Positions 11,614 to 59,603 of a stretch of 59,661 nt of DNA are shown here, piece by piece. The stretch's first letter is position 1. Every line of letters begins with the position of its first letter. Source of the DNA: Coriobacteriaceae bacterium AM100-PB1-1D-6A (lineage in GTDB: Bacteria > Actinomycetota > Coriobacteriia > Coriobacteriales > Coriobacteriaceae); assembly GCA_027660625.1 (NCBI GenBank), contig JAQDNC010000012.1:1-59661 (forward strand), given 5' to 3'. A program made the translations under genes and the position numbers. The notes beneath the pieces were generated by a model. That model did not search any database. It was given only the letters and a program-made list of their open reading frames with translations, and was not told the origin of the DNA.

Positions 11614-11625
11614 AGTTAAATCCCT

Positions 11626-11877
11626 TTAGAACTTGTCGTGGAAGGTACGCGCAATGACCTCGTCCTGCTGCTCCTTGGTGAGCGTGTGGAAGTTCACGGC
11701 ATAGCCGGAAACGCGGATGGTCAGCTGCGGGTACTTCTCGGGGTGAGCCTGAGCGTCGAGCAGCGTCTCACGGTTGAAGACGTTGATGTTCAGGTGGTGG
11801 CCACCCTTCTCGGCGTAAGCGTCGAGCATGTGGACCAGGTTATCGGCCTGAGTCTCGGAAACTTCAGAAACCTTCAT
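11626..11877 (-). CDS. Detached glycyl-radical domain of pyruvate formate-lyase (GrcA-like)
   Basis: An 83-residue protein that equals the C-terminal glycyl-radical domain of pyruvate formate-lyase. The conserved radical loop is RVSGYAV (G58), preceded by PEKYPQLTI and an [11 protein letters not shown] segment. Because the pflB gene just upstream stops before this domain, the protein should be an obligatory subunit and not only a spare part as in E. coli GrcA. ATG 11877 has an AAGGAG ribosome binding site. It lies 85 bases after the pflB stop with two hairpins between. PflA (3571-4389) would install the radical on G58. Confidence 0.9.
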
Positions 11878-11900
11878 AATGTGTCTCCTTCGATTAATAG

Positions 11901-11960
11901 GCGCCGGCCGAAACCGGCGCACTAATCAGTAATCGTTATTGTTAGTATAGCACTAACAAT
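11901..11960 (-). promoter_or_regulatory. Two hairpins between pflB and the glycyl-radical gene
   Basis: A 9-bp stem (ATTGTTAGT, loop ATAGC, ACTAACAAT; 11938-11960) starts two bases beyond the pflB stop. A 7-bp GC stem (GCGCCGG, loop CCGAAA, CCGGCGC; 11901-11920) lies just before the ribosome binding site of the small gene. There is no U-tract, so complete termination is unlikely. They could mark an RNA processing or stabilising point that adjusts the ratio of the two subunits. Confidence 0.55.
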
Positions 11961-11962
11961 AG

Positions 11963-14014
<2,052 letters not shown>

Positions 14015-14564
14015 TGTGTAACCACGCTCCTAGTTACGTGTAATGCGGCGCTCTCTCACACCGCTGCTTATTGAATTCTTGAATTTTCGGCTTGCACTAC
14101 CGGCTTCTTCCGTTCTTCACCACATGTTGGTGCAGGGAAAAACGTTTGTCCACCTTGGAACTGCAACCCAAAACCCAAGATTTCACCCGTTTGAGAAGGA
14201 TAACATAGCGACCCTCTCCATCTGGGCTGTTATATGTTTCTTTTTTTATATCATAAGGGCGTTTTTTACAAACCCGCAGGAAATGCGAGCGTGAACAACT
14301 ACCGTTCACCGATTTGTTTGGTATTTTTCCTTGCCTTTGTACGACGTTCGCTCTAGCTGTTATGCCAGCTTTAGCAGAGTAAAGTGCCTCTGAGTAGGCT
14401 TTGGGACATGCCTTACGATCTACCCCTTACTTTGCTGATACCGACGGTGTACGGAGGTCGCCTAAAGGTTGTTTTCTAGGCATGACCCAAAATCTACCGT
14501 ATAGGGTGCGCGTGCAAGGGTATCATCTTTCACCGAAAATAGTTTCTAGTGTTAGGGGTTTTCG
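14015..14564. other. Divergent intergenic region between pflB and marR
   Basis: A 550-base gap without a credible gene. The half reading toward pflB is A+T-rich; a possible promoter on the minus strand is TTTGTA, 16 bases, TATAAA near 14250-14275. ACCGTTCAC at 14301-14309 matches the half-site of the tandem 21-bp family but has no clear partner. The marR side ends in an inverted repeat (separate entry). Confidence 0.4.
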
Positions 14565-51942: not shown

Positions 51943-52018
51943 GCCAGCGTAGCTCAGTTGGTAGAGCACCGCTCTCGTAAAGCGGGGGTCACCGGTTCGA
52001 GCCCGGTCGCTGGCTCCA
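51943..52018 (+). tRNA. tRNA-Thr (anticodon CGU)
   Basis: Acceptor arms GCCAGCG and CGCTGGC pair fully, the D arm contains AGCTCAGTTGGTAGAGC, the anticodon stem CCGCT/AGCGG encloses CTCGTAA with CGT as anticodon, and the T arm is GGTTCGAGCC-like. The discriminator is T and CCA is encoded (52016-52018). A terminator follows. The foreign-looking block begins soon after its 3' end, as often found for integrated elements. Confidence 0.95.
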
Positions 52019-53545: not shown

Positions 53546-53794
53546 GTGGCAATTAAGAAGCCAACTCGCCGCGTCATGCCCGTTGGAGAGGCGAGCATGA
53601 CCCTCATGGGTAATCAAGACACACGAAACAAAGGGGATTCGACAAGTCGCAAGAAAGGGGAGTGCATCACCTTTTGGGTTACGGAAGAGCAGAAGCAAGA
53701 GATGAGCACCTACGCGGCGGAACACAACACCACGGTATCAAGGATCATCATCGAAGGCCTTGAGATACGCATGGGTATAGGGCAATCATTATAG
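53546..53794 (+). CDS. Small ribbon-helix-helix-like DNA-binding protein
   Basis: An 82-residue protein with a basic N-terminal half (about 1-40) and a C-terminal segment CITFWVTEEQKQEMSTYAAE followed by NTTVSRIIIEGLEIR, which has the strand-helix-helix pattern of Arc/CopG-type regulators or accessory relaxosome proteins. The start is GTG 53546 with AAGGAG upstream. It lies inside the A+T-rich acquired block. It may regulate a mobile element or be a mobilisation relic; no relaxase or toxin partner is next to it. Confidence 0.6.
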   Translation: MAIKKPTRRVMPVGEASMTLMGNQDTRNKGDSTSRKKGECITFWVTEEQKQEMSTYAAEHNTTVSRIIIEGLEIRMGIGQSL

Positions 53795-53830: not shown

Positions 53831-55480
53831 CTATCGATTTGCGCAACGGTGTGACGCGTTATCTAGACTGACGATCGTTTCCGCTGCATTTGCCAGCTCA
53901 TTATCATGTGAAACAATGATAATGAGCTGTTTCAATTTGTTGTTTCTGACATACGAAGCGAGTTCGGCTCGGCTTGTTTCATCCAATCCAGTTGTAGGCT
54001 CATCGAGCACCAAGACTGATGGATTACGGGAAATTGCCGACCACAAGTATACACGGCGCAGCTCACCACCCGAAAGTTCAGGACAACGTTTCTCAAGCAA
54101 GCCCTCTATGCTGGTTGTCAACGACGGTAGCTCATTCATATGCTGGTGCTTTGTAAAAAATGGGGTGTTGAAATAATCCAACAGGTCCCGAACCGTCTCA
54201 TCTGGAGCGAAGCACGGTTGGGGGCAGCACGATATCGTGTCTGAACGTATGTAATCCAAATTGCATTTTTCAATCGGCATGTCGTTGTATGTTACTTTGC
54301 CTGCCGATGGATACAGCCCAAGGAGCAGGTAAAGGAGCGACGTTTTTCCTCTTCCATTTTCTCCGGTTATGCAGTATGTTCCAGGGCCGGAGAAATCGAA
54401 GGAAAATCCGTCAAGAACCTTTCGGGGAGATCCGTCTGGAAGGGGTACCGTAAAATCCAACTTGGAAACAGAAATGCGATTTATTGTGTCAATCTTGACT
54501 AAACCTGTCTGATCTTGCTCTGGTTCCGGTCCTACCTTTCCCATGGCGCTCATCCTGTCCCACGAAGCCTTGGCATCCTGATAGGACTTGAACAGGTTCA
54601 TCGTGTTTTTCAAGGTTTTAAATTGGACGGCAAAATATGCACCGACGATGGTGTATTCGCCTATCGTCATGGTTCCATTGATGATTCGCACTCCGGATAC
54701 GATGAGTATTATCGCTTGAAACACGGCAGCAAAAAGGCTGTCAATCGATGTTAGTGAGAATGAGAGCTTTCCCGAGTGCAAGACCTTTGGAAAATACTTT
54801 TCAAATCCGGTGTCAAGTGCTAGCTCGCTTTTATTGTATGAAGACGTTAACTGAATGTTGAGAATCTGATTCAACTGCGATGCTATTACGGCATAGAAAG
54901 CGCTATCTGCCTCCTTCTTCTCGTACATGACTTTATATAGAAGCTTTCGCAATCCGGTAATAACGAAGAGATATGCCACAAGAAGGAGGATGGAGAATAG
55001 TGCGAGGAGTGGATCAACCGACCATATGACGAGCAACACGAAAGGAATGGCGACAACAGACAGGGGAGCGCTGATAAAGTTTGTTAGAACGAAAGAAGAA
55101 ACAACACCTGAGTCAGTGAAAATCCTTTGCGTCGTATAGGCTGAGTCGGTTGTTCGGTTCGTCAGAAAATTAACTCGCTCAAAGCGCAAGACGGTTTCCC
55201 TGAGTAGGTCAAAAGAAAGCTTTGTGGATATACGGATAGATAACGTTCCTGCAAAATATGAAAATAAGGCAGAAAAGACCCCTATTGAAGCTACGAAGAG
55301 CGCAAAAAGCACAGCATCCTTCTCGCTGCGATTGGCAAGAAGGAAATCTAAGAACTTTCCGTTCACATATGGTGCGGCATAGGAAAGGGCGATTCCAATC
55401 GTCGTGATGGCAATGAACGTGAAAGCACCCTTTGTTTTACTAAACTTCGATAAGACGTACCGAATCAAGAATGGCCCCAA
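53831..55480 (-). CDS. ABC transporter, fused membrane and ATPase domains, probable peptide exporter
   Basis: A 549-residue exporter half: six membrane segments (about 20-300), then an ATPase domain with Walker A GENGRGKTSL (about 373-382), signature ELSGGELRRVYL, Walker B VLVLDEPTTGLD and switch VSHD. No N-terminal peptidase domain is present. The gene follows the putative RiPP operon on the same strand, 260 bases after the small membrane-protein gene, so export of the product or self-protection is a natural role. Codon use is A+T-richer than in core genes of the window. The start at ATG 55480 has no strong ribosome binding site. Confidence 0.85.
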   Translation of the reverse strand: MGPFLIRYVLSKFSKTKGAFTFIAITTIGIALSYAAPYVNGKFLDFLLANRSEKDAVLFALFVASIGVFSALFSYFAGTLSIRISTKLSFDLLRETVLRFERVNFLTNRTTDSAYTTQRIFTDSGVVSSFVLTNFISAPLSVVAIPFVLLVIWSVDPLLALFSILLLVAYLFVITGLRKLLYKVMYEKKEADSAFYAVIASQLNQILNIQLTSSYNKSELALDTGFEKYFPKVLHSGKLSFSLTSIDSLFAAVFQAIILIVSGVRIINGTMTIGEYTIVGAYFAVQFKTLKNTMNLFKSYQDAKASWDRMSAMGKVGPEPEQDQTGLVKIDTINRISVSKLDFTVPLPDGSPRKVLDGFSFDFSGPGTYCITGENGRGKTSLLYLLLGLYPSAGKVTYNDMPIEKCNLDYIRSDTISCCPQPCFAPDETVRDLLDYFNTPFFTKHQHMNELPSLTTSIEGLLEKRCPELSGGELRRVYLWSAISRNPSVLVLDEPTTGLDETSRAELASYVRNNKLKQLIIIVSHDNELANAAETIVSLDNASHRCANR

Positions 55481-55639
55481 TCTATCAGGTATGAAATACC
55501 AACTGATGACACCTTACACCGCGGTTCGGTGGAAACGAAGCGGCGACTAATCGGCACGAGCGCTTCCATAGAGAGTCTTTGCGAGCTGGATCCTCATAGA
55601 AACGGGAATTTTATGTTCGATCAATAGGCCGCGCACGGC

Positions 55640-55675
55640 AGTCGGACGGCTGAAAAATAAAACAGCCGTCCGACT
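55640..55675 (-). terminator. Hairpin between the RiPP-like operon and the ABC gene
   Basis: AGTCGGACGGCTG and CAGCCGTCCGACT form a 13-bp perfect stem with a ten-base A+T loop. No U-run follows on the minus strand. It may be a partial terminator that separates the maturation genes from the transporter gene. The rest of 55481-55740 shows no convincing gene. Confidence 0.6.
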
Positions 55676-55740
55676 AAAGCTGTAAATTTTTTCATTGTTT
55701 GTTGGGCATGCGCCTGAAGTTTCATGCAATAGGAAATCCA

Positions 55741-56082
55741 TTATGACCATGGTCGAAATGTGAACACTACGATCGTTAGCAAGGAGACGCCAAGACCGGC
55801 AAAGATTATGATGAGCGGCAGAATGAAAGCCGCCGATGCCGATAATGGGATTTGGGACGCAAAGGCAATGATGCCCGCGAGAACGAGACCGGCTCCCGTC
55901 AACGCTATTCCGAGTCCGACCAATCTGGCAACAAGAGGAATCTTCTCGCTTGGAATATGAGCGATATGGTAACTGTGAATCAGGCCGGGATTGCCGGTCT
56001 TTACCATTAACACCCCGACAACGAGAAAGCAGATTCCTCCTACCATGCCGCCAATGGATGATCTTAGCGCTTCAGGACTCAT
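55741..56082 (-). CDS. Small three-helix membrane protein (DUF3784-like)
   Basis: A 113-residue protein with three hydrophobic segments (about 8-28, 50-72 and 82-108) and a polar loop GNPGLIHSYHIAHIPSEKIP between the first two, a pattern resembling DUF3784 proteins. These small membrane proteins often accompany peptide antibiotic or transporter genes, and an immunity role is possible. It overlaps the candidate precursor gene by four bases (ATGA), so it belongs to the same operon. No cysteines are present. Confidence 0.65.
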   Translation of the reverse strand: MSPEALRSSIGGMVGGICFLVVGVLMVKTGNPGLIHSYHIAHIPSEKIPLVARLVGLGIALTGAGLVLAGIIAFASQIPLSASAAFILPLIIIFAGLGVSLLTIVVFTFRPWS

Positions 56083-56282
56083 TGCTCGTCTTGGCCACCT
56101 TGCTCGCTGAGGGGAAGTGCTGCGGCAAAAGTGATGAGGACCAGTTCATAGGCTCCAACTGCGGTGACTCCGACCGCCACATTTGCTCCCCACACGATGT
56201 AATACATGTCGAACCAAGTTTCCGTTCCAAGAGTCGATGCTCTGGTCGGATTCATGTTGTCTACTACGGGCTTCTCGTACAT
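56079..56282 (-). CDS. Candidate RiPP precursor peptide
   Basis: A 67-residue frame that begins with its ATG directly after the radical SAM stop codon and overlaps the next gene by four bases. It opens MYEKPVV, resembling the Y-x-x-P-type leader motifs that RRE domains bind in several RiPP classes. The putative core (about 23-58) is hydrophobic with aromatic residues W23, F24, Y27, Y28, W31, Y45 and F52 among Ala, Val and Gly, and has no cysteine. A cysteine-free core points away from sactipeptides and toward carbon-carbon crosslinks, epimerisation or another radical change. A single-pass membrane protein is the alternative. Confidence 0.5.
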   Translation of the reverse strand: MYEKPVVDNMNPTRASTLGTETWFDMYYIVWGANVAVGVTAVGAYELVLITFAAALPLSEQGGQDEQ

Positions 56283-57371
56283 TTAACCCAACATCTCCTT
56301 CAACGATGAGTTCAACAGTTCATCCGCGGTATCATCAATCAGGTCAACGTGTAGATCACCTCCCATATCTATATCGCAAATTGTGTCGGACATACGCTCC
56401 ATGTCGTCAATGGTCCACATGTGGTTACAGAGGTCTTGAACCAGTTTTGTGGACCAAATTGAGCTAAGTCCGTTGTTCCAGTAATCCTCAAGAGGGTGGT
56501 TTCTGATGTTGCCAACCACTAACGGGATATACGGAGAAACGACGATGTCGCCGTTTGCGTGCACTGAAACCTGATCTAATAGATATCGGTTATCAGAGAA
56601 GCGAATTAGATGGTCGACGGGGTCGCCCCATTGCGGTCGGACATTCGGGTGCTTCCGAAGGAAGTCGTCCTCTTGAATGGCGTGAATCAACGTACGGTAT
56701 TGGGAATAGTCCGGTCTAATAAATGTGTTCTTTCGCGCACGGCCCAAAACCATGAGGGGTTGGACACGTAGTTCGATAAAGTCACCCGGCGTCCTCTTCG
56801 GCCTGTTAGATTTGGTGAAAATCTCATCTAATAGTGAGATGACATCGGGAAACTGTTCGGTGTTGAACGACGTGGGCGTAAATGCGATAGCAAGGTGCAA
56901 ATCGGAATGGTTGAGTACGGTGGCAACTGCTTCTTCGACGATTTCGAAGGCTCCCTCATGTCCCCTCAGCCTATCGTGAGCTGACCCAATGCCGTCTAGG
57001 CTAAATTGGATGCTTTTGAGTCCGGAATCTTCTAAATCTCGGAGAAGGGATTCCGTGAGGAGAAGCCCGTTGGTTACCAGGCTCGCTGCAACATTCCCAT
57101 CTCGCAATATGGGAAGGCAGCGCAAGATATCTTTACTGCGCAACAAGGTTTCTCCTCCACAGAAACACATGCTGTAAAGCGACATGTCTGCCATTTCCTT
57201 TGCGAAAACAAAAAGTTCATCTGAGGTCAACTCGTCGTGCATGACCTCATTCTCGCCGCTGCTGTTATAGCAGTGCAGACATCTCAAGTTGCACTTGTTT
57301 GTTATGTCAAGGGCGACGTGATGTGGCGCTCTGAGAACGTTGGTGTACTTGTTTTCCGAAACTCGTCCCAT
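56283..57371 (-). CDS. Radical SAM enzyme with degenerate SPASM-like C-terminus
   Basis: A 362-residue radical SAM protein. The cluster motif CNLRCLHC has cysteines at 27, 31 and 34, followed by the GGET motif (CFCGGETLLR) and a TIM-barrel core to about 220. The C-terminal part has the SPASM-like ISPYIPLVVGNI-type segment (here VSPYIPLVVGNI) and DYWNNG, but few cysteines, so it probably cannot bind the usual two extra clusters. It starts at ATG 57371 (AGAGGA upstream), eight bases after the RRE-GNAT stop, and abuts the small peptide gene. It most likely modifies that peptide. Confidence 0.85.
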   Translation of the reverse strand: MGRVSENKYTNVLRAPHHVALDITNKCNLRCLHCYNSSGENEVMHDELTSDELFVFAKEMADMSLYSMCFCGGETLLRSKDILRCLPILRDGNVAASLVTNGLLLTESLLRDLEDSGLKSIQFSLDGIGSAHDRLRGHEGAFEIVEEAVATVLNHSDLHLAIAFTPTSFNTEQFPDVISLLDEIFTKSNRPKRTPGDFIELRVQPLMVLGRARKNTFIRPDYSQYRTLIHAIQEDDFLRKHPNVRPQWGDPVDHLIRFSDNRYLLDQVSVHANGDIVVSPYIPLVVGNIRNHPLEDYWNNGLSSIWSTKLVQDLCNHMWTIDDMERMSDTICDIDMGGDLHVDLIDDTADELLNSSLKEMLG

Positions 57372-57379
57372 GGTTCCTC

Positions 57380-58240
57380 TTAACAGACTTCTGAAAAACA
57401 GTATACATTCATGCAGTCGCCGTCGCTGCACTCACCTGGAAAAGTGCCAGCGCAAGTGAATTCTGGCTCATTGATAAGATTTCGAATTCCTTCGTTTGAT
57501 GCAATTTCCTTGCTGGTTAGGTTCAGGTGGAAAAAATTGGGAACATCGCAAAATTCTTGACGATAGAAGCTGGCCGCAGCGGCAATACATTGAACGGCGA
57601 TGCTTGCGGGGCACAAAAGAAGACAGATGTCTGCGTATCTGAGTAAGGGATTGCTGGAGGGGGCGAGGCCGAGTAGACCGGTTGGTCTCCCTGACTCATA
57701 TACAATGAAAAATTCCTTGCTCAGATTGAACAATCCGTTTCGCACCTCTAGCGGTCGTTCATACTGCTCGACGGAAAGAGGCCAACCGTAGACAATTGTG
57801 GGACTTTCTGGTTCTGATGAGCTCGCCTGGCTTGCCAGGGAGCAAATCAGGCGAATATCGTTTTCTTGGGCAAGCCGTATATGGGTCCCATTGTCCACGC
57901 AAATCTCATCGGCAATGGGTGTGCCATTTTCGGTCGGAGTTTTGACCCATCCTATTAGTCTCGATACGCTGAAACCTCTCATTGCCGAGGCTAAGTCAGA
58001 TTTGAGCATGTCCGGATTGGCGTCTGGAAACTTGTCGCACATCCGATTAAGGATTGTTTCGACGGTGTTTTTACCATCGCACAGAGAGACGATGTAGCTC
58101 CCGCTTCCGTTCAACATGATATAGTTCAGCTCATCGCGTCCGGTTAGAACAGAGCGGTACCCGTTCTTTTCCTCTCTTGAGTATGGGAGAGAAATCGATT
58201 TCGGGATAAATCCCCTTATTTCGTCAAAGCTCCATTCCAT
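57380..58240 (-). CDS. PqqD-like RRE domain fused to a GNAT-like domain
   Basis: A 286-residue protein. Residues about 30-100 resemble a PqqD-type RiPP recognition element: LNYIMLNGSGSYIVSLCDGK, NTVETILNRMCDKFP, then a helix MLKSDLASAMRGFSVSRLIGW. From about 118 the sequence HIRLAQENDIRLICSLAS, FFIVYESGRPTGLLGLAP and the VYCF end look like a GNAT acetyltransferase fold. The C-terminus is cysteine-rich (CAGTFPGECSDGDCMNVYC). It should bind the leader of the 67-residue peptide for the radical SAM enzyme and perhaps acylate it. ATG 58240 follows AAGGAGG; it heads the operon. Confidence 0.7.
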   Translation of the reverse strand: MEWSFDEIRGFIPKSISLPYSREEKNGYRSVLTGRDELNYIMLNGSGSYIVSLCDGKNTVETILNRMCDKFPDANPDMLKSDLASAMRGFSVSRLIGWVKTPTENGTPIADEICVDNGTHIRLAQENDIRLICSLASQASSSEPESPTIVYGWPLSVEQYERPLEVRNGLFNLSKEFFIVYESGRPTGLLGLAPSSNPLLRYADICLLLCPASIAVQCIAAAASFYRQEFCDVPNFFHLNLTSKEIASNEGIRNLINEPEFTCAGTFPGECSDGDCMNVYCFSEVC

Positions 58241-58443: not shown

Positions 58444-58640
58444 ATGAACAGGATACTAAGCCGCGCGCTCGCGCTGGTCCACACCGTGATCGAGTACGCC
58501 AGCATCGACGGCGGCAGGATAATCGTCGGCGTCAGGCCGTGGACGAGTTTCGGGCTGCGGTGCCCCGTCTGCGGGAGGGCAGCGAATGCTACGACAGGTC
58601 GCCAAGGCCGCGGCTGTGGCGCGCGATGGACCTGGCGAGG
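58444..58640 (+). pseudogene. ISL3-family transposase, N-terminal fragment
   Basis: From ATG 58444 the frame reads MNRILSRALALVHTVIEYAS and then LRCPVCGR, the N-terminal zinc-finger start of ISL3 transposases. Homology then continues in another frame (ECYDRSPRPRLWRAMDL), so a frameshift lies near 58575-58590. It ends where istB-like sequence begins, about 58640. The bulk of the transposase is missing. Confidence 0.65.
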
Positions 58641-59380
58641 TCGACCTCTCCGCGCTCGGGCTGCACGAGATGGCGGCGTCCCTGCCCGACTACGTGAGGA
58701 TGGTCGCCGCGGGCGAGCGGGGCTTCGCCTCCGCCTTCGAGGAGATGACGCGCGTCGAGGTCGCCGCCCGGGAGGTCAGGATCACCAACCAGCGCATTCG
58801 GTCGTCGGGGTTCCCCTACGTCAAGGGGCTGGCGGACTTCGACTGGGACTTCCAGCCGTCGGTCCCTCGCGCCGAGATCGAGGAGCTCGCGACCCTCAGG
58901 TTCGTGGAGCGGGCCGAGAACGTCCTGTTCGTGGGAAGCCCCGGCGTGGGCAAGACGCATCTCGCCGTCGCGCTGGGCATCGAGGCAGTCAGGGCGGGGC
59001 GCGAGGTCAGGTTCGTGGACTGCGCCCGGCTCGTCGAGGACCTTGAGGACGCCTCGTCGCGCGGCATCCTCAAGAAGAGGCTCAAGTACTACGCCCACTC
59101 GAGGCTGCTGATCATCGACGAGCTCGGCTACCTCGACGTCGGCAGCGTGGGCGCGGACCTGTTGTTCCAGCTGATATTGACGCGCTACGAGCAGCGCTCG
59201 ACGATCATCACCGCCGACGTGGGGATCGGCGGCTGGGGCAGGGTGTTCGGGGACGACGTGGCGGCGAGCGCGATCGCGGACAGGGTGTGCCACCACTGCC
59301 ACCACTGCCACCTGGTCAAGATAGCCGGCAGGTCCTACAGGCTGAAGGACCTGCCGAGGGACGGACCCGTCAAGGCGTGA
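58586..59380 (+). pseudogene. istB: IS21-family helper ATPase IstB, 5' end replaced
   Basis: The frame encodes 264 residues, but the first 18 or so are read out of frame from the ISL3 remnant; genuine IstB sequence begins near LSALGLHEMAASLPDYVRM (about 58640). It has Walker A GSPGVGKTHLAVALG, Walker B LLIIDELGYL and the C-terminal IADRVCHHCHHCHLVKIAG with a duplicated His/Cys run. The usual TSN sensor is replaced by TADVGIGGWG. The istA transposase gene that should precede it is missing. It may still be translated from ATG 58586, but the element looks dead. Confidence 0.7.
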
Positions 59381-59481: not shown

Positions 59482-59603
59482 GGGGCGTGCCCGTCGCGGC
59501 GTTTCACGGGGATGTCTCGCGCCATCCCCGGACCCCTTCGCGCCAAAGGGACGAGTCCCCTTGGAACCCCGGGCCGCCGCCGGCGGGCCGTGAACGGCGG
59601 GAC

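Follow-up and report, generated by a model that had tools for sequence, protein, structure and literature searches.

A candidate operon for a cysteine-free, radical-modified peptide in Coriobacteriaceae bacterium AM100-PB1-1D-6A

The window analyzed in this study is a stretch of 59,661 nucleotides from Coriobacteriaceae bacterium AM100-PB1-1D-6A (contig JAQDNC010000012.1, assembly GCA_027660625.1). Near its end, four minus-strand genes form a compact set in the order RRE-GNAT, radical SAM, peptide and membrane protein, and their reading frames were checked. We consider it fairly probable that this operon is an uncharacterized pathway for a cysteine-free radical-modified bacteriocin, a ribosomally synthesized and post-translationally modified peptide (RiPP). 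The four genes and the ATP-binding cassette (ABC) exporter gene that follows them are:

57380..58240, minus strand: fusion protein of a RiPP recognition element (RRE) and a GNAT fold, 286 residues; ATG at 58240, stop at 57380; sequence AAGGAGGGATTAATTATG
56283..57371, minus strand: radical S-adenosylmethionine (SAM) maturase, 362 residues; PF04055 at E 4.8e-17; start ATG at 57371
56079..56282, minus strand: precursor peptide, 67 residues, cysteine-free; 24 relatives at E<=1
55741..56082, minus strand: DUF3784-like small membrane protein, 113 residues, proposed immunity protein
53831..55480, minus strand: ABC exporter, PF00664 and PF00005; TTG start uncertain

A preliminary description of this DNA had read the four genes as tightly packed, and the frames bear this out. 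The intergenic gaps measure 8 bases and 0 bases, and the peptide and membrane protein genes share a 4-base ATGA overlap. An RRE, a radical SAM enzyme and a small peptide had been named there as the minimal parts of a radical-modified peptide pathway, followed by an exporter gene. All three parts are present with a conserved peptide gene, and the exporter open reading frame starts 260 bases past the membrane protein gene, across a hairpin.

In the pathway that we infer, the RRE would bind the Y-x-x-P-x-V leader and hand the 67-residue peptide to the radical SAM enzyme, with the GNAT half probably acting as a structural or docking relic rather than an acetyltransferase. The enzyme, apparently with a single cluster, would take hydrogen from hydrophobic core residues (N34...GVTA..xYELV), and the radical would most simply be quenched by hydrogen return, giving L-to-D epimerization, perhaps with the invariant Cys69/Cys71 pair as the donor. 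The exporter, which lacks a leader peptidase domain, would secrete the peptide as a membrane-active and presumably toxic product, and the DUF3784-like membrane protein would provide self-immunity.

The gene set recurs in other genomes. The radical SAM protein of the window recurs at about 100% identity (one residue differs) in Collinsella sp. BG-O-102 and in C. aerofaciens D31t1 contigs, and the block from near the tRNA to position 59603 is 98.7-99.7% identical in three genomes, among them G001, whose RRE gene carries an insert. A radical SAM profile matched nine genomes both among 396 of the class and among 395 of the order, two overlapping draws that gave the identical nine; eight are of the window's genus, Collinsella, and one (G218) is of another family. 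The genus search found the family in 8 of 43 genomes. The small peptide was found to accompany the enzyme, as had been anticipated: at each of the 10 Coriobacteriia places where the enzyme family was found, the radical SAM gene has a peptide gene on its 3' side, and four peptide types were distinguished, the window peptide being of type 1. In type 2 (L015, identical to L041, and L016-L019), the radical SAM protein is about 50% identical to that of the window, and the set comprises RRE-GNAT, radical SAM and a 60-residue peptide beginning MYETPEV, together with membrane protein and exporter genes in divergent orientation. Locus L040 (genome G218) has the order RRE-GNAT, radical SAM, YRAPAI peptide and membrane protein with 4-base overlaps at two joints, and no exporter was found adjacent to the set. 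The most divergent locus, L020 (genome G013), encodes a radical SAM protein, a 160-residue protein, an RRE protein (266 residues), the peptide, a membrane protein, a methyltransferase and an exporter, with two genes between radical SAM and peptide. The 160-residue protein, which has no Pfam match, is taken for the GNAT part.

Two further observations were made at these loci. At about 10639-12260 of L013 (genome G001), an insertion sequence (IS) with a 14-base repeat and an IS30-like transposase frame, recognized by eye, lies inside the RRE-GNAT gene; this operon is broken by the IS, and its other four genes are still open. Beside the type-2 operon of L041, positions 11618-14554 carry a DUF5969 protein, a protein with a radical SAM match below the cut-off and a methyltransferase that shares its Pfam matches with the L020 operon methyltransferase. 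This region is possibly another RiPP cluster.

Two parts of the precursor peptide were delimited by sequence comparison:

56262..56279, minus strand: leader motif YEKPVV (Y-x-x-P-x-V), proposed handle for the RRE; compare YETPEV (L041) and YRAPAI (L040)
56139..56183, minus strand: most conserved core, residues 34-48, N...GVTA..xYELV; compared by eye, part missing in P0130

The frame of the 67-residue peptide with its YEKPVV start was confirmed. Thioether chemistry, which the preliminary description had excluded, is ruled out for the window peptide because it has no cysteine. The L041, L040 and L020 peptides, with the starts chosen, have no cysteine either, while the relative P0135 has one. The peptide, at 67 residues and with no Pfam match, shows no nitrile-hydratase-like leader. 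The YxxP pattern is a characterized RRE recognition motif of lasso leaders (PMC12710340, in excerpt), and a Y-x-x-P leader motif is present in three of the four peptide types. A 19-residue stretch with a mean hydropathy of 1.79-2.02 is found in all four. Seven of the 24 relatives are close and in frame (P0121-P0125, P0127 and P0130; P0124 lacks two residues and P0130 seven). The more distant in-frame relatives P0133 (72%) and P0135 (71%) keep MYEKPxVDxMNP, GTETWF and GAN...GVTA..AYELV; in P0135, Trp31, Tyr27 and Tyr28 are missing and the cysteine stands at position 27. Five relatives are short forms starting at Met26 (P0139-P0142 and P0144).

The peptide frame had been expected to behave as a coding gene. 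The type-1 gene is identical across three genomes and therefore gives no substitution rate. In type 2, synonymous changes outnumber nonsynonymous changes in each pair: 9 against 3 between L041 and L019 (p 2e-4), 4 against 2 between L041 and L018 (p 0.03), and 6 against 3 between L019 and L018 (p 0.007), with the L018 peptide compared over 54 of 60 codons. The type-2 peptide gene is under purifying selection, in agreement with the expectation.

The radical SAM enzyme carries two conserved cysteine motifs:

57270..57293, minus strand: CxxxCxxC radical SAM cluster motif (C27, C31, C34), kept in 69, 69 and 70 of 70 sequences
57150..57167, minus strand: family-specific CxCGGE motif, C69 and C71 at the SAM-binding GGE, kept in 70 of 70 sequences

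The PF04055 match and the retention of CxxxCxxC across the family uphold the gene assignment. An alternative GTG start lies at 57431; close relatives begin at the ATG at 57371. The alignment comprised 70 of 120 listed homologues (290 found). Past residue 240 it has no conserved cysteine column, 16 of the 70 sequences having no cysteine there at all, and except for C69/C71 it holds no conserved extra cysteine set for a second cluster. The SPASM profile gave 18.9 bits, below its cut-off of 21.5. The enzyme thus apparently has only the SAM-cleaving [4Fe-4S] cluster, as judged from the alignment. In the structure model (pLDDT 91.7), the nearest solved fold among the matches listed is that of SkfB (PDB 6efn); SuiB is also among the nearest, and viperins are fold neighbors. 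SkfB carries TLTGGE at the CxCGGE position. No NCBIfam model reaches its cut-off for this protein among the matches listed (25 of 81).

Proteusin epimerases combine a sole radical SAM cluster with an RRE and one critical cysteine (PMC8326336, in excerpt). The window enzyme likewise would lack auxiliary clusters, which makes epimerization the first guess, and we propose it only tentatively as the chemistry. It is possible, though rather unlikely, that the same RiPP bacteriocin instead receives, at side chains of Val, Thr or Tyr, a cyclopropane or a crosslink of the C-C or C-O type. The modeled fold, nearest to SkfB and SuiB, would suit such an enzyme, TvgB converts Val to cyclopropylglycine (PMC9062424, in excerpt), and most in-frame relatives retain Tyr45, Thr40 and Val39 in their core. 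However, auxiliary clusters are proposed to serve crosslinking enzymes as electron sinks or substrate ligands; in SuiB and PqqE they are the proposed electron sinks and are essential (PMC8326336, in excerpt). The lack of a conserved C-terminal cysteine column over the 70 sequences and the loss of Trp31, Tyr27 and Tyr28 from P0135 also speak against this alternative.

A viperin-like enzyme was also considered, as was any other radical SAM system of antiviral or cofactor function that has nothing to do with peptides. The PADLOC pVip models match the radical SAM protein at 9.4e-17, in line with the viperins among its fold neighbors. The NCBIfam viperin model, however, gives 55 bits against a cut-off of 180, and an RRE and a small peptide recur with the enzyme. 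The pVip matches were read as general radical SAM similarity, and the viperin-type antiviral enzyme was rejected as extremely improbable.

Relatives of the enzyme include proteins from Lachnospiraceae, Paenibacillus and Thermoanaerobacterium. In two database proteins, P0066 and P0078, an exporter N-terminus is joined to a radical SAM protein of the family. Ten plasmid records carry relatives, of which the Collinsella one (H1) is the only close relative and the other nine are 25-31% identical. The single relative among viral contigs (L039, 33%) is distant and truncated, and the phage search gave one weak match.

The RRE-GNAT protein is divided into two domains:

57986..58129, minus strand: RRE (PqqD-like) domain, residues 38-85; PF05402 at E 1.2e-8, 35.5 bits, cut-off 23.4
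57383..57913, minus strand: GNAT-fold domain, residues 110-286, without the Q/RxxGxG/A motif

An RRE had been placed within residues 30-100 of this protein, and PF05402 matches there above its cut-off. The RRE part of the proposed fusion therefore stands by Pfam. The GNAT part is a fold assignment from structure comparison: the Pfam search gave no GNAT domain in this protein, and the acetyl-CoA motif of GNATs, Q/RxxGxG/A, is in the expected CoA loop of none of 10 sequences (QEFGEG follows the loop in two). The GNAT half is therefore unlikely to bind acetyl-CoA as GNATs usually do. A homologue search gave 11 matches, nearly all near the window type or the L040 type. In GNAT-modified RiPPs the peptide is acylated by a GNAT, and an active acyltransferase giving a doubly modified product was accordingly weighed here. 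The absent motif disfavors an active acetyltransferase, and the only Lys of the window peptide sits in the leader; we regard this alternative as quite improbable and prefer the relic.

The membrane protein resembles DUF3784 (PF12650), with scores below the cut-off of 28.1 bits in each case: 13.9 bits for the window (E 0.064), 24.5 for L041 (E 3e-5) and 23.5 for L020 (E 6.5e-5). The L040 and L052 membrane proteins gave no DUF3784 match. Of the 43 genus genomes, 4 carry the type-1 protein at 69-100% identity (G001, G004, G024, G026), and 7 carry the type-2 protein at 60-99% (G004, G005, G006, G008, G029, G031, G038). Three of these 10 genomes, G024, G029 and G038, have the membrane gene without a family radical SAM protein at 1e-20. 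In G024 (L052), RRE residues 2-22 run in frame into peptide residues 39-67, followed by an open 113-residue membrane gene; neither a radical SAM gene nor an exporter gene was found near it. In G029 (L070), the alignment to L041 spans the membrane gene and its upstream part and breaks off after about 17 bases of the RRE gene. In G038 (L071), the membrane gene was the one gene of the set to be found.

Open frames were counted over 11 loci, L012-L014 and L052 for type 1 and L015-L019, L070 and L071 for type 2. The window itself, L020 and L040 are outside this tally, as are L010/L011, whose contigs are identical with L012/L014. All 11 loci have an open membrane gene; the exporter and the peptide are open in 8 each, the radical SAM gene in 7 and RRE-GNAT in 5. 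RRE-GNAT is broken by the IS in L013, is split in L016, is absent from L019, L070 and L071, and is reduced to its start in L052. The two-frame split in L016 may stem from faulty assembly, and the L019 deletion ends at the membrane gene start. The membrane gene is the fastest evolving among the genes compared, with dN/dS (nonsynonymous to synonymous rate ratio) of 0.46-0.83 in close type-2 pairs, 0.28-0.33 against the distant L071 and 0.31 in type 1; the other genes gave 0.43 (RRE-GNAT), 0.09-0.21 (radical SAM gene) and 0.19 (exporter).

Immunity genes standing without toxin genes are familiar among bacteriocins, and the intact lone membrane genes in three genomes, one of them with a deletion scar, are as expected of bacteriocin immunity. 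From these gene patterns, the protein looks like an immunity protein. Hydrophobic secreted peptides can also signal, and the gene set alone does not discriminate, so the peptide might be a pheromone and the membrane protein its receptor or export partner. We consider this unlikely: the membrane gene occurs without the enzymes, the full peptide gene or the exporter in the three genomes, there is no regulator or kinase gene within the operon, and the rapid divergence seen in the membrane protein is in keeping with immunity.

The presence of an ABC exporter gene after the operon was verified, and no C39 peptidase domain match was found in its product. The window exporter is 36% identical to that of type 2 and 32% to that of L020, and the exporters of type 1, type 2 and L020 share 31-36% mutual identity. 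Between the membrane protein and exporter genes lies the hairpin:

55640..55675, no strand assigned: perfect 13-bp inverted repeat with a 10-base loop, read from the sequence

It is a possible attenuator. A small open reading frame at 55547-55750 overlaps the hairpin, has no family match and was not counted as a gene.

Several observations weigh against the bacteriocin pathway or its parts. The gene neighborhoods compared all lie within Coriobacteriia. The L020 peptide has no clear YxxP, and the seven core residues missing from P0130 include part of the core motif. Ten of the 24 peptide relatives shift out of frame within the core or tail (P0126, P0128, P0129, P0131, P0132, P0134, P0136-P0138 and P0143). 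These ten and P0144 end in the same alternative frame from different shift points, and P0138 occurs on 13 contigs; either errors of sequencing or real decay may explain these shifts. The C69/C71 pair is placed at the GGE motif, whereas the hydrogen-donor cysteines of EpeE (C223) and PoyD (C372) lie far along their chains. The G024 relic reads ACG at its start codon and may therefore no longer be coupled to the membrane gene. G038 shows no scar, so loss of the other genes is not demonstrated in that genome. As the exporter and peptide are open in 8 of the 11 loci, retention of the membrane gene by itself rests on three genomes, and its dN/dS of 0.28-0.83 indicates weak constraint in some pairs. 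Two-copy membrane paralogues (26-37% identity) occur in 7 of the 43 genomes, none with the radical SAM gene, so this protein family need not be only immunity.

These paralogues were not counted as immunity genes. One of them, in L057 (3.3 kb), is a 237-residue protein of two domains with another membrane protein next to it, and this 3.3-kb region showed no RiPP genes. The two-copy proteins (L057 1465-2178; the same 7 of 43 genomes) carry a GNPxxxHxYH-like motif, as does the operon membrane protein.

The operon lies in a block with these borders:

51943-52018: tRNA-Thr, one border of the block; sole Rfam match at gathering cut-offs
58586-59380: IS carrying IstB, the other border

An A+T-rich block between tRNA-Thr and IS remnants had been described, and the base composition, the tRNA and the IstB match agree with it. 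In 1-kb windows, the G+C content is 44-50% over 53.5-58.5 kb, 50-54% between this stretch and the tRNA, and 58-67% further out. Positions 58444-59380 are an IS remnant in which a zinc-ribbon transposase-like start, seen by eye, overlaps the IstB frame. A small plus-strand protein at 53546-53794 has a weak match to the NikA mobilization protein (E 0.0044, below the cut-off), which hints at mobile DNA beside the tRNA. Promoter and terminator scans gave no more than shuffled sequence.

If the proposal is true, a radical-modified bacteriocin pathway is added to Collinsella and, judged by the enzyme relatives, perhaps also to Lachnospiraceae, Paenibacillus and Thermoanaerobacterium. Peptide modification without auxiliary clusters would offer a clean test of what such clusters do, and self-immunity is proposed as a function of DUF3784-like proteins. 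Strains that carry the membrane gene alone, strains with broken or intact operons, and the four peptide types provide test material. It is doubtful, in our estimate, that the operon defines a new RiPP class of gut bacteria, in which an auxiliary-cluster-free SkfB-fold enzyme, served by an RRE with a repurposed GNAT, would modify cysteine-free hydrophobic toxins through a CxC hydrogen-transfer relay at the SAM-binding loop, with a dedicated DUF3784-like immunity persisting in non-producers.

The combination had not been recognized as a named class in the preliminary description. Consistent with this, no publication on the gene set was found among the matches listed in open-licence literature, and no NCBIfam cut-off was reached among the matches listed. 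The RRE-GNAT fusion, the CxCGGE pair and the membrane gene role were likewise absent from these NCBIfam matches and open-licence literature listings, and no mention of DUF3784 was found in the open-licence literature searched.

Among known systems, SkfB, the sactisynthase of the sporulation killing factor, has an auxiliary cluster and makes Cys thioethers, whereas the window enzyme lacks conserved auxiliary-cluster cysteines, its peptide has no cysteine, and its RRE is separate and fused to a GNAT fold. Sactipeptides and ranthipeptides in general have a donor cysteine in the precursor and SPASM/twitch C-terminal cysteines in the enzyme; the window peptide has no cysteine, and the window enzyme family conserves no such C-terminal set. 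The proteusin epimerases PoyD, OspD and AvpD are alike in their single cluster (by motif), RRE, conserved extra cysteine and Val/Ile targets (PMC8326336, in excerpt). Their RRE is inside the enzyme, however, proteusins have long nitrile-hydratase-like leaders, and the candidate cysteine of the window enzyme stands at another place; no proteusin epimerase model is among the NCBIfam matches listed (25 of 81). The epipeptide system epeXEPAB (EpeE, PDB 8ai1) is alike in its compact operon, exported peptide and Val/Ile targets (PMC8326336, in excerpt), and its product is likely membrane-active (PMC8326336 and PMC12871923, in excerpt), as proposed for the window peptide. EpeE has a second [4Fe-4S] cluster, and the window family appears to lack conserved cysteines for one. 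The TvgB/poly-cyclopropylglycine pathway also uses a radical SAM enzyme, TvgB, which acts on core-peptide Val; its rSAM/SPASM enzyme, TVGG repeats and putative dioxygenase have no counterpart in the window operon (PMC9062424, in excerpt). Lasso systems share the YxxP leader motif and the PqqD-like RRE (PMC12710340, in excerpt); their leader peptidase B2 and macrolactam synthetase have no match among the operon proteins, which include a radical SAM enzyme instead. The component kinds are already known. What appears new, against the NCBIfam matches and literature listings above, is the way they are combined, together with the absence of conserved auxiliary cysteines, the CxCGGE pair, the fused RRE-GNAT and the role proposed for the membrane gene.

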